The position numbers and the translations under genes are program-made. From positions 1 to 34,413 of the forward strand of contig CAIWFB010000321.1 of NCBI GenBank assembly GCA_903911825.1: a DNA stretch of 34,413 nt, in the 5' to 3' direction. Every line of letters starts with the position of its first letter. The stretch's first letter is position 1. This DNA is from an uncultured Verrucomicrobia subdivision 3 bacterium (lineage in GTDB: Bacteria; Verrucomicrobiota; Verrucomicrobiia; Limisphaerales; UBA11358). The notes below the pieces were generated by a model that saw nothing but the letters and a program-made list of their open reading frames with translations, was not told where the DNA came from and searched no databases. Below, in pieces: positions 24,188-33,542 of the stretch.

Positions 24188-25027
24188 CTACCTACCAACC
24201 GACCAATCCGAACGGATTTTTTTAGGAGTAGCACCCTGCTCGCGCAACTGGCGCAAACTCAAAGAGTCATGCCTTTTGGCCAAACGCTCCCCTTTAGCAT
24301 CCAGCATCAGTTCACAGTGGAAAAAATCCGGCACCGACCAGCCTAGTGCGCGATAAATCAAGATTTGCCGCACGGTGCTGACGAGCAAATCCGCCCCGCG
24401 CACCACTTCGGTGATGTGCATCGCAGCATCGTCAGCGACGCAAGCCAACTGGTAAGCGGGCACGCCATCGCCGCGCCACACGATGAAATCACCAAAATCT
24501 TTGCCCGCAATAAAATTCTGCGGACCGCAATTCCCGTCCATGAATGAAACGGTTTCGCCATCAGGCACACGAAATCGCCAACTGTATTTTCGATTGCCGA
24601 TTGCCGATTGCCGATTTTCCCGACACGTTCCGGGGTAGATCAATTCATCATCCGCTGCGTGCGGGGCGGTGACGGCGGCTTGAATATCTTTGCGTGAACA
24701 AGTGCAGGGATAAATGAAGTTGCCGGACTGAAGCTTTGCTAGCGCCGCGCGGTAAACATCCATTCGCTCGCTTTGGTTGTAGGGCGCATATTTTCCGCCG
24801 ACATCCGGGCCTTCACTCCACTCGAAACCGAACCAGCGCAAGTCTTCGAGCATGGAGTCAACGAACTCCATTTTGAAGCGGGTGGAATCCAAATCTTCAT
24901 TCCGCAAAATCAATTCACCGCCGGCGGCTCGCGCCCGTTGCTGTGCAGCCCAGAACGTGCGCGCGTGCCCCAGGTGCAAATAGCCGGTGGGCGAAGGCGC
25001 GAGGCGACCACGATACGTTTGATTCAC
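24188..25027 (-). CDS. gluQ: Glutamyl-Q tRNA(Asp) synthetase
   Basis: GluQRS attaches glutamate to the queuosine base of tRNA(Asp). This 279-residue protein is the catalytic half of a GluRS without an anticodon domain, as expected. It begins GRLAPSPTGYLHLGHA, with the HIGH-type motif HLGH (18-21). The zinc site is visible as YPCTCSRKD followed by YPGTC. The KMSKS-type motif is LAKRHDSLSLRQL near the C-terminus. Directly after the zinc cysteine the sequence RQSAIGNR is encoded by a 7-bp tandem repeat, in frame (listed separately). The start is GTG at 25027. It is upstream of the atp operon on the same strand but is probably independent. Confidence 0.94.
   Translation of the reverse strand: MNQTYRGRLAPSPTGYLHLGHARTFWAAQQRARAAGGELILRNEDLDSTRFKMEFVDSMLEDLRWFGFEWSEGPDVGGKYAPYNQSERMDVYRAALAKLQSGNFIYPCTCSRKDIQAAVTAPHAADDELIYPGTCRENRQSAIGNRKYSWRFRVPDGETVSFMDGNCGPQNFIAGKDFGDFIVWRGDGVPAYQLACVADDAAMHITEVVRGADLLVSTVRQILIYRALGWSVPDFFHCELMLDAKGERLAKRHDSLSLRQLREQGATPKKIRSDWSVGR
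24591..24616. repeat. 7-bp tandem repeat inside gluQ
   Basis: CGATTGC occurs three times in succession followed by CGATT, giving 3.7 copies. Three units make 21 bases, so the tract encodes RQSAIGN in the gluQ frame without breaking it. It lies in the loop after the last zinc ligand. Copy-number change by a number not divisible by three would frameshift the gene. Confidence 0.9.
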
Positions 25028-28821: not shown

Positions 28822-29529
28822 TCACGGATGCGGCGTGGGTGGGGGCGGGGTCACGGCAGGTTTATCCGGTGGCGGCGTGTAGGTGGTGGGGATGGTGCCG
28901 CGAATCATATCGCCCTCCGCTGTGCCTGCCGGAAACACATCCAGCGCGTCGGAATACCACGCCTCATTGACATCTTCCAACGCGTGCGCCATCTGGTTCA
29001 GTATCCCCGCCTGCTCGCGCCACGCGCTCAACTTATCTTTGTAATCCTGCTGTAACGGCTCCGCGCATAGCAGGCGCAAGGGGCTGAACGCCGCCAGCGT
29101 GTTGGTAGCGAGCGGACTCCACCCCGGCTCCGCCTTGCTCCACGCCGTCTCCCAATTCAACGCCTCCTCCAAGATTGCCGCCCGACTATCGCCCCGCGCC
29201 GACAAATCAGCGACCAAGGACAACTTGATCGGATCATTCCGGTAACGGTTCTTGGCCATGGACACCCCCTGCATCGTCAGCTTATGCAACGTATCCAGTT
29301 TTGCGTCCCACGCCGAACGCGCATTCACCATTTCCTGCTCCGCCGCGCTCGTGATTTTCTCCTGCCCCGGCAGCACCGGCGTGACCGTGTTATCGCCGAC
29401 GATTGCCACCACCGCCGCATTCATCTGCGCCACCGTTTTTTCCTGCCACGTCCACTGCGCCGCCACCGCTTTGGCAGCGGCAATGGTTTTGGTGGCGCGG
29501 TCTTTGACGAACTCCAGTGTTTGACTCAT
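28822..29529 (-). CDS. Hypothetical helical protein next to the 21-bp array
   Basis: I do not recognise this 235-residue protein. It has no signal peptide and no membrane helix, so it should be cytoplasmic. Residues 1-45 are an Ala/Val/Lys/Gln-rich helix with two tryptophans (QWTWQEKTVAQMN). Residues about 60-200 are mostly helical and acidic, with EEALNWETAWSKAEPGW and DVNEAWYSDALDVFPAGTAE. The tail of about 25 residues is proline-rich (TYTPPPDKPAVTPPPPTPHP). The ATG at 29529 has AAAGAG about eight bases upstream, a reasonable ribosome site. The gene begins 64 bases from the first clear core of the repeat array, and the array fills its upstream region. A role in binding or regulating that array is only a hypothesis. 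Confidence 0.8.
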   Translation of the reverse strand: MSQTLEFVKDRATKTIAAAKAVAAQWTWQEKTVAQMNAAVVAIVGDNTVTPVLPGQEKITSAAEQEMVNARSAWDAKLDTLHKLTMQGVSMAKNRYRNDPIKLSLVADLSARGDSRAAILEEALNWETAWSKAEPGWSPLATNTLAAFSPLRLLCAEPLQQDYKDKLSAWREQAGILNQMAHALEDVNEAWYSDALDVFPAGTAEGDMIRGTIPTTYTPPPDKPAVTPPPPTPHP

Positions 29530-29592: not shown

Positions 29593-29880
29593 ACCTACGC
29601 CCACGCGCCACGTGCCACCGTAGCGGGCCGGGATTCCTACGGACATCCCCACCCTTCCTACGGACAAAGTAACGCCGCCGACGCAGAATTTTGGCCCGCC
29701 GACACCGTCGGCCAAGCAAGACGACCTGTAGGAATAATAAAAATGGTCGTCGGCACGTCAAGAATCTACGTCGGCACCCCTCGGCGCTACGTCGGCGCGG
29801 ATAAAATGGACGTCGGCCAGCCTTCCCGCTACGTCGGCCCGCCAAAAATGGTCATAGGAACCCTGCGCCTGTCCGTAGGT
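29593..29880. repeat. Divergent 21-bp-period repeat array with central dyad
   Basis: Six-base cores recur every 21 bases. On the minus strand they lie at 29593-98 GTAGGT, 29614-19 GGTGGC, 29635-40 and 29656-61 GTAGGA, 29677-82 and 29698-703 GTCGGC. On the plus strand they begin at 29707 GTCGGC, 29728 GTAGGA, 29749, 29770, 29791, 29812 and 29833 (all GTCGGC), 29854 ATAGGA and 29875 GTAGGT. The two sets meet at GCCGACACCGTCGGC (29698-29712). Three bases before each core are mostly TAC, GAC, GTC or TCC, and about 12 bases between are variable. Further degenerate units may exist at both ends (for example GCCGAC at 29568). It is not a CRISPR: the repeats are too short, and the units change orientation. 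It lies between the 28822-29529 gene and the ABC-F gene. Confidence 0.92.
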
Positions 29881-30142: not shown

Positions 30143-31753
30143 ATGTTAATCATTCGCGACTTAAAGATGACTTTTGGCGGACGCACGCTGTTTGAAAACG
30201 CGTCGTTTGCCGTGAATTACGGCGACCGTGTGGCGCTGGTCGGCCCCAATGGTGCGGGCAAATCCACCTTGTTCTCGCTCATCCTCAAACAGCGCGAGGC
30301 GGATTCCGGCGTGATCGAGCGCGATGAATGGACGATGGTGGGCCATCTCCCACAGGAAGGCGAAGCGCTCGGCGAGGAAACGGTGCTAGATGTGGCCACG
30401 GGGCGCGTGGATGAATTGCCGCAGATCGAGAAGCGCTTGCATGAGTTGGAAAAAGCCAATGATGTTTCCAGCGCGGAATACATGGAGTTGCACGCCAAGC
30501 ATGACAAGCTGAACGATCCGCAGGTAGAGACGAAGGCGCGCAAGATGTTGCGCGGCCTCGGCTATCGCGAGGCGGACATCACGCGCAAAGCGAATGAGAT
30601 GAGCGGGGGCTGGGTGATGCGCGCGCGCTTGGCGCGGTTGCTGGTGATGGAGCCGGATTTGTTGCTGCTGGATGAGCCGACGAATCATTTGGATCTGCTG
30701 TCGTTGCTGTGGTTGCAGAATTACTTGAAGAATTACTCGGGAGCGGTGCTGCTCATCTCGCATGATCGCGTGTTCATGGATGAGGTGATCACGCAGGTGC
30801 ATGAGATTTCGGAGCGCAAGTTGAGTCCCTACACGGGCAACTACACGGACTTTCTGCGGCAGCGGGAGGAGCGTTACGAGCAGCAGTTGGCGGCTTACAA
30901 CAATCAGCAGAAGGAGATCAAGGCGTTGCAGGAGTTCGCGGATCGGTTCCGCGCGGTGCCGTCGAAGGCGTCGCAAGCGCAAAGCAAGCTGAAGCAGATC
31001 GAGCGGCTGGAGCTCATCGAAAAACCGTTGGCGCCGCGCAAGCCGTTTCGCTTTCACATTCCGCCGCCGCCCCGGGGCGGGCAACGCGCGATTTCGCTGG
31101 AAGGGATTCACATGGCTTACGGCACGCACGCGGTGTATGCGGGGCTGGATTTGACGATCGAACGCGGCGAACGCACGGTGTTGGTCGGCCCCAATGGCGC
31201 GGGCAAGTCCACGTTGCTGAAGATTCTCGCGGGCGTGGTGGAGTTTCAGAAAGGCAAGCGCGACTTGGGCCACAACGCGAAGATCGGTTACTTCAGCCAG
31301 CATCGGGCGGCGACGTTGGACCCGGAGAAGACGGTGATTGATGAAGTGTTATCCGCCGCGCCGGAGTTGCCGGAGAACGAAGCGCGAGGAATTCTCGGCT
31401 CCTTTCTGTTCCGCAAGGATGACATCTTCAAGAAGACGGCGGTGTTGAGCGGGGGCGAGAAGAGCCGCTTGAACCTCATCAAATTTCTGGTGGATCCGCC
31501 GAACTTGTTGCTGATGGACGAACCGACGACGCACTTGGACATTCACACGGTGGAGTCGCTGACGTTGGCGTTGGAGAAATACGAAGGCACGCTGGTGTTC
31601 ATCTCGCATGATGTGCATTTCATCCGCCATCTCGCGACGAAGGTGCTCCACGTCAATGCGGGCACGATCACGCCGTATGCGGGGAGCTACGATTATTTTC
31701 TGGAGAAGACGGGTCTGCTCGAAAACGAACGCGCCGCACTTACGGCGAGCTAA
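30143..31753 (+). CDS. ABC-F family ATPase (ribosome-associated)
   Basis: ABC-F proteins are soluble, carry two ATPase domains and act on the ribosome, relieving stalls or giving antibiotic resistance; they are not transporters. The 536-residue protein has Walker A GPNGAGKST twice. The signatures are MSGGWVMRARLARLL and LSGGEKSRLNLIKFL. The Walker B motifs are LLLLDEPTNHLD and LLLMDEPTTHLD. The charged interdomain linker (about 240-320, RQREERYEQQLAAYNNQQKE) is the P-site-tRNA-interacting region. There are no membrane segments. The length resembles YbiT-like members. ATG at 30143 is where homology begins. The DUF4337 gene follows by 6 bases, so the two share a transcript. Confidence 0.93.
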   Translation: MLIIRDLKMTFGGRTLFENASFAVNYGDRVALVGPNGAGKSTLFSLILKQREADSGVIERDEWTMVGHLPQEGEALGEETVLDVATGRVDELPQIEKRLHELEKANDVSSAEYMELHAKHDKLNDPQVETKARKMLRGLGYREADITRKANEMSGGWVMRARLARLLVMEPDLLLLDEPTNHLDLLSLLWLQNYLKNYSGAVLLISHDRVFMDEVITQVHEISERKLSPYTGNYTDFLRQREERYEQQLAAYNNQQKEIKALQEFADRFRAVPSKASQAQSKLKQIERLELIEKPLAPRKPFRFHIPPPPRGGQRAISLEGIHMAYGTHAVYAGLDLTIERGERTVLVGPNGAGKSTLLKILAGVVEFQKGKRDLGHNAKIGYFSQHRAATLDPEKTVIDEVLSAAPELPENEARGILGSFLFRKDDIFKKTAVLSGGEKSRLNLIKFLVDPPNLLLMDEPTTHLDIHTVESLTLALEKYEGTLVFISHDVHFIRHLATKVLHVNAGTITPYAGSYDYFLEKTGLLENERAALTAS

Positions 31754-31759
31754 ACTTTT

Positions 31760-32308
31760 ATGGAAGAACAAGAAGTTCCCACGGAACATTTACACGAACA
31801 CATGGAGCATCACGCCAAACACAGTGCTGAACGCTGGATTTTGGGCGTGGCGTTGAGCTCGGCGTTGCTGGCGGCGCTGGCGGCCGTGGGGTCGCTGCAA
31901 GCCGGTCACCACGCGAACGAGGCGATGATTTGCCAGATCGAGGCGGCGAATAAATGGAGCTATTTCCAATCGAAGAGCATCAAGGAATCGCAGTTGAAGT
32001 CGAAGTTGGAAATCTTGGAGGCGCTGGGCAAACCCGACCAACCGGCGGACAAAAAGAAGTTGGAAGAATACAAATCGGACAAGGAAAAGATTCAGTCGGA
32101 GGCGGAGGAAAAAGAAAAGGAAGCGACGCACGAACTCAAGACGCACCAGATCTTCGCGAAGAGCGTGACGCTGTTTCAGATTGCGATTTCCATCGGCGCG
32201 ATCGCGGTGCTCACGAAACGTCCGCGCTTCTGGTATTTGAGTTTAGGCTTGGGCGTGACGGGCTTGGTGTTTTTCATCCAAGCGTTTCTGTCCATCGCCG
32301 GCCACTGA
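31760..32308 (+). CDS. DUF4337 membrane protein
   Basis: This 182-residue protein has a His-rich N-terminus (EHLHEHMEHHAKHS). One membrane helix lies at about 25-48 (LGVALSSALLAALAAVGSL). A soluble charged coiled-coil segment (about 75-130, KKKLEEYKSDKEKIQSEAEE) follows, then two C-terminal membrane helices (about 133-150 and 158-180). The segment EAANKWSYFQSKSIKES is the signature I associate with DUF4337. Its function is unknown to me. It starts 6 bases after the ABC-F stop. The His-rich start might bind metal, which is a guess. It ends before the bidirectional terminator at 32326-32355. Confidence 0.82.
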   Translation: MEEQEVPTEHLHEHMEHHAKHSAERWILGVALSSALLAALAAVGSLQAGHHANEAMICQIEAANKWSYFQSKSIKESQLKSKLEILEALGKPDQPADKKKLEEYKSDKEKIQSEAEEKEKEATHELKTHQIFAKSVTLFQIAISIGAIAVLTKRPRFWYLSLGLGVTGLVFFIQAFLSIAGH

Positions 32309-32900: not shown

Positions 32901-33053
32901 AGTTTGTATTTCGGCTTATAAAATACCTCACCGGTCCGGGATCAACAATGGGGTGAATACCTGATGAGTGCGGGCAACCAACCAGCGGGTTACGCCGCCG
33001 CCAGACTTGACGCGGCATGGGCTAAGGTTCAGGTTTGGCCGAGGATTAAATTT

Positions 33054-33542
33054 ATGAAAAGCGACGCCACGACAGTCGAGGAATACCTAAAGACCTTACC
33101 CGCTGATCGCCGCGCGGCAATCAGCGCCGTGCGCCAAGTCATTCTCGCCCACCTGCCCAAAGGTTTCGTCGAATGTATGGGCTACGGCATGATTGGCTAC
33201 GTCGTGCCGCACAGTCTTTTTCCCGCCGGTTACCATTGCGATCCCAAGTTGCCGCTGCCCTTCGCCAACCTGGCCTCGCAGAAAAACCACATGTCACTGT
33301 ATTTGATGACCGTCTATGGCGACCCGGTCGCCGAGCAATGGTTTCGTAAGGCTTGGCAAGCTACCGGCAAAAAACTCGACATGGGCAAAGCCTGCGTGCG
33401 GTTCAAGAAACTCGACGATGTGCCGCTGGAGGTGATCGGGCAAATCATCGCCCGCGTGTCGGTAAAAGAATACATCGCCCGCATCGAGAAAGCGTTCAGT
33501 AATACCGCCAAGGCGCGAAAAAAAGCACCGAAGCCCAAATGA
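33054..33542 (+). CDS. DUF1801 / YdhG-like protein
   Basis: This 162-residue cytosolic protein starts with a helix containing VEEYLKTLPADRRAAISAVR. It has the central ECMGYGMIGYVVP region and the pattern KNHMSLYLMTVYGDPVAEQW. The conserved CVRFKKLDDVPLEVIGQII follows, and the C-terminus is Lys-rich (KARKKAPKPK). These are hallmarks of the DUF1801 (YdhG/YjhA-like) fold; I do not know its biochemical role. ATG at 33054 is preferred because the family begins here and GAGG lies about nine bases upstream. The open frame extends to 32964, but those 30 residues look unrelated. It ends before the terminator shared with eno. Confidence 0.8.
   Translation: MKSDATTVEEYLKTLPADRRAAISAVRQVILAHLPKGFVECMGYGMIGYVVPHSLFPAGYHCDPKLPLPFANLASQKNHMSLYLMTVYGDPVAEQWFRKAWQATGKKLDMGKACVRFKKLDDVPLEVIGQIIARVSVKEYIARIEKAFSNTAKARKKAPKPK

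Follow-up and report, generated by a model that had tools for sequence, protein, structure and literature searches.

An array of 15 six-base cores set at exact 21-base steps, nine on the plus strand and six on the minus strand, occupies positions 29593-29880 of the window, as we call the whole 34,413-nucleotide stretch of DNA that was analysed. We read it, at a probability of roughly 45%, as a helix-phased platform of candidate cooperative protein-binding sites acting in cis to the left-hand orphan gene. What we observe is how the array is spaced, its cores and symmetry, where it lies and how it is inherited; binding, cooperativity and gene control are what we infer.

The array is flanked on its left by the minus-strand orphan gene, whose start codon lies 64 bp away, and on its right by a plus-strand ABC-F ATPase gene that starts at 30143. 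The original prediction had described at least 15 cores at exact 21-base steps, six of them on the minus and nine on the plus strand, around a central dyad; all 15 were recovered with every coordinate in register, and the dyad is formed by the two innermost cores at the junction of the halves (Table 1). The pattern GTMGG fits 13 of the 15 cores, the exceptions being ATAGGA at 29854 and GGTGGC at 29614-29619 on the minus strand. A detector of 21-bp-spaced cores scored both halves far above the maximum of 13.9 reached when the whole window was shuffled 20 times by mononucleotide, and the observation is confirmed. The division of each unit into a fixed core and a variable stretch was likewise borne out: with the 15 units aligned, the five columns of CGT.GG (its fourth position excluded) are identical in 13 to 15 units and every other column in at most 10. 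For a portion of the plus half TRF called a period of 42 bp, which reflects two unit flavours in partial alternation.

Table 1. Coordinates of the array, its orphan gene and other features of the window, with SseB-like genes from other loci
Feature	Position	Strand	Remarks
Orphan gene, family A (235 aa)	28822..29529	-	Homologs usually with an upstream 21-bp array; all-helical AlphaFold2 model, pLDDT 95
Left array half	29593..29703	-	6 cores, ends at 29598, 29619, 29640, 29661, 29682, 29703; detector score 29.9
Central dyad, GCCGAC-ACC-GTCGGC	29698..29712	.	Two innermost cores, joining the halves; GAC-N3-GTC type
Right array half	29707..29880	+	9 cores, starts at 29707, 29728, 29749, 29770, 29791, 29812, 29833, 29854, 29875; detector score 54.4
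DUF4337 gene	31760..32308		Downstream of the ABC-F gene
DUF1801 gene	32964..33542		Downstream of the ABC-F gene
Heptamer CGATTGC	24591..24616		Short tandem repeat, 3.7 copies
SseB-like genes	L215:289-1125; L299; L307:2401-3240; L214:1077-1883		L215 member matches Pfam SseB and SseB_C

Comparison of related loci places the array with the left-hand orphan gene, a member of what we term family A, rather than with the ABC-F gene. An ABC-F protein match occurs in 49/49 genomes of the genus, paralogs counted, and we compared the best 30 loci, comprising the window and 29 relatives at 84-91% identity. Neither a window-type array nor the orphan gene was found upstream of the ABC-F gene in these relatives (0/29 for each), and on this basis we rejected regulation of the ABC-F gene by the array. 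One ABC-F relative (L291, just 435 bp upstream) carries a different 21-bp periodic stretch.

The association extends to two more orphan families, B and C, which were encountered beside arrays in another genome, G018. Profile comparison found B and A to be unrelated, family B has no Pfam match, and an fn3 domain is present in 10 of 75 family C homologs. Within 900 bp upstream of the genes, 21 was the best lag among lags 15-30 at 21/25 loci of family A, 20/28 of B and 23/26 of C, against 8/30 ABC-F loci. Lag identity at 21 bp reached at least 0.48 at 18/25, 22/28 and 21/26 of the A, B and C loci, respectively, and at two of the 30 ABC-F controls, one of which is the window itself. Downstream of the same genes this level was reached at 3/26 (A), 1/30 (B), 2/28 (C) and 0/30 (ABC-F) loci. 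The upstream counts leave aside six loci whose upstream sequence was shorter than 200 bp (one of A, two of B and three of C) and one C locus at which the gene was not recovered, and they use an estimated gene start for some homologs because these are fragments.

Searches of Pfam, NCBIfam and PHROGs with the window's family A protein gave no match at E<0.01, and no DNA-binding domain or toxin family was recognised in those libraries; structure searches with the AlphaFold2 model of the protein gave no match at E≤0.001. Family A is acidic, with a pI of 5.15. We collected 95 family A homologs, and the four that carry an organism name all belong to Verrucomicrobiota. The family was found in 15/293 genomes of the order, two of these at E>1e-5, and among 387 genomes sampled evenly over the phylum it was found in the window's own genome and in one other as a weak, partial match. 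Phage, plasmid and viral collections yielded no relatives at the limits used. Longer members (P0065, P0069, P0088 and P0095) have an extra C-terminal stretch that looks Ig- or FN3-like by eye, in place of which the window member has a proline-rich tail. Three genomes (G277, G018 and G297; Table 1) have genes for SseB-like proteins in the neighbourhood of family A or B genes.

The geometry of the array is shared with relatives of the gene. The closest family A relative with DNA examined, at 66% identity in genome G020, has the same head-to-head array upstream, with TACGCCGTA at the orientation switch. Compared unit by unit, the spacers of the window and G020 arrays gave 53/126 matches versus 36.9 when permuted (p=0.003), with the maximum at shift 0. 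Core identity was higher at shift 3 (0.81) than at shift 0 (0.71), and in G020 a single unit sits one base out of register; that core identity is not best at the same index, and that one unit is off register, we count against the binding reading. Further family A homologs also have upstream 21-bp arrays, mostly with different cores. Five of the eight two-orientation family A arrays contain GACnnnGTC once, at the orientation switch, against a background frequency of roughly 0.1 per 300 bp; two of these five come from paralogs that are 89% alike, which likewise weighs against binding.

To compare array sequence with gene ancestry, we delineated 63 arrays and compared their consensus sequences pairwise. 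Mean similarity was 0.53 where the proteins were at least 60% identical (60 pairs) and 0.33 where they were less than 40% identical (349 pairs); between families it was 0.29 (1316 pairs), and between families within one genome 0.30 (49 pairs). Judged by consensus similarity, array type follows the gene orthologs and not the genome. Such inheritance of the word with the gene, rather than across the genome, disfavours one sequence-specific, genome-wide binder, and some of the resemblance between arrays of close orthologs may be due to simple descent.

Arrays of this step are also common away from these genes. A period tally of G018 covered 573,046 bases in 40 contigs (the first 20 kb or the whole contig), with contigs C1, C8, C16, C32 and C38 set aside as known carriers of A, B or C genes. 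It returned 35 stretches with lag identity of at least 0.48 at periods 13-40, among them 21 at period 21 and three at period 22, with any remaining period in two stretches at most; block-shuffled DNA gave no such stretch at these periods. A match to A, B or C (E≤1e-4) lies within 1.5 kb of 4/21 period-21 arrays, two of these matches being weak. In a separate search for A, B or C remnants beside another set of 21 arrays, strong matches were confined to L213 and L214, where the genes are present, and those at L209 and L216 were weak. By eye, most G018 arrays consist of palindromic units with a consensus of their own, and the arrays are intergenic, between neighbours in every relative orientation. 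Period 21 accounted for 4/9 periodic stretches in 267 kb of the window's own genome and, as a modest excess, for 13/74 in 398 kb of G184 (nine each at 15, 18, 33 and 39), both samples being partly non-random in that they include contigs chosen from earlier hits. A genome of another order showed no period-21 excess over 400 kb (10/84, with 13 at period 24).

Some of these arrays are dispersed copies of one another. Within G018, a stretch of 616 bp is common to L388 and L412 at 85% and one of 399 bp to L397 and L401 at 74%, and L405, L407 and L417 have 126 identical bases in common, at contig starts. The same conserved flanks in G018 enclose two different 21-bp arrays (L388:344-699, L389:1346-1688 and L412:10002-10395), as though the flanks had been retained around array content that was exchanged or that diverged. 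Period-22 arrays of the same kind occur at L394:11876-12243, L407:17800-18101 and L415:9605-9996 in G018, and in two of them, which are near copies, some units carry GACCCCTC, the reverse complement, in place of the block GAGGGGTC. G184 has the unit type GATTCTACACGTCGG at three separate loci (L205:2324-2700, L206:2265-2540 and L207:1897-2300), each array with two outward halves and none of the three beside an A, B or C gene; GACnnnGTC is central in one of three orphan arrays of G184 and absent from the other two.

The original prediction had proposed looking in related genomes for GTMGGM cores at 21-bp spacing, a test that succeeded in part. In the order, the GTMGG core at that spacing, searched as CGTMGG, matched 23/293 genomes versus 14/293 for a reversed control, which makes the result weak by itself, and several of the matches were simple or coding repeats. 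Arrays that combine this step with a different core proved common, the core sequence varying by locus while the step stays at 21 bp, rarely 22. The original prediction mentioned neither this variation of the core nor the association with the left-hand gene nor arrays at other loci. A pattern scan of genome contigs gave at least 118 stretches with record titles from many phyla, and from these titles we judged the set to be dominated by simple and coding repeats, and in column-conservation scans coding periodicity swamped the signal.

Two turns of B-DNA span 21 bp, and the oriented sites of the window array stand at helical phase. Known iteron and operator arrays of cooperative DNA-binding proteins likewise have oriented sites about two helical turns apart, with possible nucleation and spreading; unlike them, the arrays described here are many per genome, each has its own core, and the binder is only putative. 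In the mechanism that we propose, a dimer would settle on the central dyad, further subunits would join cooperatively outwards at every second turn on the same helix face, and the resulting nucleoprotein filament or wrap would switch or tune the orphan gene. The interpretation given in the original prediction is supported in part: the placement of all cores on one face, for cooperative binding by a putative protein, stands as the best reading of step, conserved cores with freer spacers, and dyad. Since loci within a single genome carry different array types, the reader is probably locus-specific, or else phase and symmetry are read more than sequence; a locus-specific reader is perhaps the orphan gene product itself. 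The existence of three 22-bp arrays, together with the lack of a codon signal, fits a constraint set by helical turns. Against binding we also count the acidic character of family A and its lack of a recognised DNA-binding domain or structural match, the position of most G018 arrays away from A, B and C genes, the dispersed copies among them, and a promoter-like site within the window array.

The main rival to the binding reading, and in our estimate a rather unlikely one, takes the arrays for minisatellites or miniature mobile elements that are scattered between genes, have no regulatory role and arise by slippage or transposition, with 21 bp as a trait of the copying process. The dispersed G018 copies, the single unit type at three G184 loci and the exact tandem copies within several arrays all speak for it, and bacterial minisatellites (VNTR) are similarly tandem and intergenic, some with exact copies. 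However, in G018 a single period dominates, every alternative to 21 being represented by three stretches at most; arrays are enriched upstream of three gene families; unit order is preserved between two species; and a dyad marks the orientation switch. The arrays differ from VNTRs in that a single period prevails among them, the orientation switches at a dyad and spacers agree unit by unit across two species. The copies are covered by this explanation, but the upstream enrichment at three families and the unit-by-unit match are not. Whole-length likeness of units, as in a minisatellite, was not found in the window, where likeness is limited to the core columns; some other arrays are near-exact tandems.

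A wider extension of the binding reading, which we regard as unlikely, would see in the arrays an address system of a new class on the chromosome. Each genome would have many two-turn arrays between its genes, every one with a private word for a co-inherited locus-specific factor, and the A, B and C proteins would be self-readers of this type that nucleate at a dyad and spread outwards.

Quite unlikely, in our view, is that the array is read as RNA, in a leader or a small RNA whose elements repeat or pair, comparable to the repeat-RNA antitoxins upstream of their genes. The array does lie upstream of the orphan gene, and contains a promoter-like site aimed at that gene (minus strand, 29761-29734, TTGACG-16-TATTAT, 10/12 matches); three promoter-like sites occur in the window region versus 0.2 in shuffles, one at L307 versus 0.3, and none at L310. 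It also folds better than shuffled sequence (z of -2.7 and -3.95), and units in many arrays are palindromic, yet any inverted array is expected to fold well. The window and nine other loci had no Rfam match at gathering thresholds, tRNA aside. A first covariation test on 84 arrays gave a mean z of 1.93 at the best axis versus -0.09 elsewhere, a result confounded by flank rows. In a stricter test on palindromic units of 45 arrays, 203/397 pairs were compensatory versus 179 expected (51% versus 45%, p=0.018). That the excess is only slight weakens the large-hairpin alternative that had been suggested, although RNA folding beats shuffles. Type III toxin-antitoxin loci have tandem repeats directly upstream of a small gene, as the window locus does; unlike them, the window locus has 21-bp units in two orientations, no recognised toxin family and an RNA that is putative.

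Very unlikely is a purely topological role, in which cruciform-prone or curved DNA would set supercoiling or insulate neighbouring genes with little protein specificity. A fixed two-turn step with variable sequence, dyads in units or arrays, and the variety of gene orientations seen around the G018 arrays would suit it; the conservation of core columns inside the array, and the inheritance of array type with orthologs, would not.

We consider it highly improbable that the window array consists of clustered REP elements bearing GTAG or CGTC tags. According to PMC3733652, GTAG and CGTC are the tags of two REP super-families, both present in the window cores, and GTAG repeats are reported from Verrucomicrobia; there, CGTC REPs are without a RAYT (Y1 transposase), while the association holds for GTAG. 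REP, BIME and REPIN elements with RAYT transposases, the subject of PMC3733652, PMC2817692 and PMC3116915, resemble the arrays in being intergenic, often palindromic, many per genome and in head-to-head pairs, but the arrays differ in their contiguous units, fixed 21-bp step and locus-specific sequence, and the window array also in lacking tagged stem-loops. Folding nine plus-half units of 30 nt each revealed no stem-loop after the tag (mean energy about -5.7 versus about -5.4 in mononucleotide shuffles), and a three-core pattern at one mismatch or fewer matched the window array alone in its own genome, in which no Y1 transposase was found (91.5% complete). Y1 transposases were present in 6/7 genomes searched, and a 21-bp array adjoins 1/12 Y1 loci.

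Coding of seven-residue repeats has a negligible chance. The step of 21 is divisible by three, and over the window array a plus frame stays open for about 110 codons with a recurring Val-Gly, a frame that we judged incidental. Codon-phase conservation, however, was significant in 1/28 arrays, substitutions were spread 259/229/237 over the three phases (eight ortholog pairs), and a 22-bp step occurs in three arrays, of which two are mutual copies; on this evidence coding is rejected as a general explanation.

The original prediction knew of no family with such a layout, and we likewise recognised no description of such arrays in open-licence PMC papers. The feature may yet prove to be an unusual minisatellite or a variant of operator arrays. 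If functional, the helix-phased arrays would represent a cis element not described before, with a constant step of two helical turns and a locus-specific sequence, present in genomes of this order at a density of up to some tens per Mb in the best-sampled relative. They are tied to three families of small proteins, of which A and B matched none of the libraries searched and C just fn3, and would thereby offer a handle on genes of unknown function. They would also raise the question of how DNA can be recognised through phase and symmetry, or through a reader private to the locus, as opposed to a word common to the whole genome.
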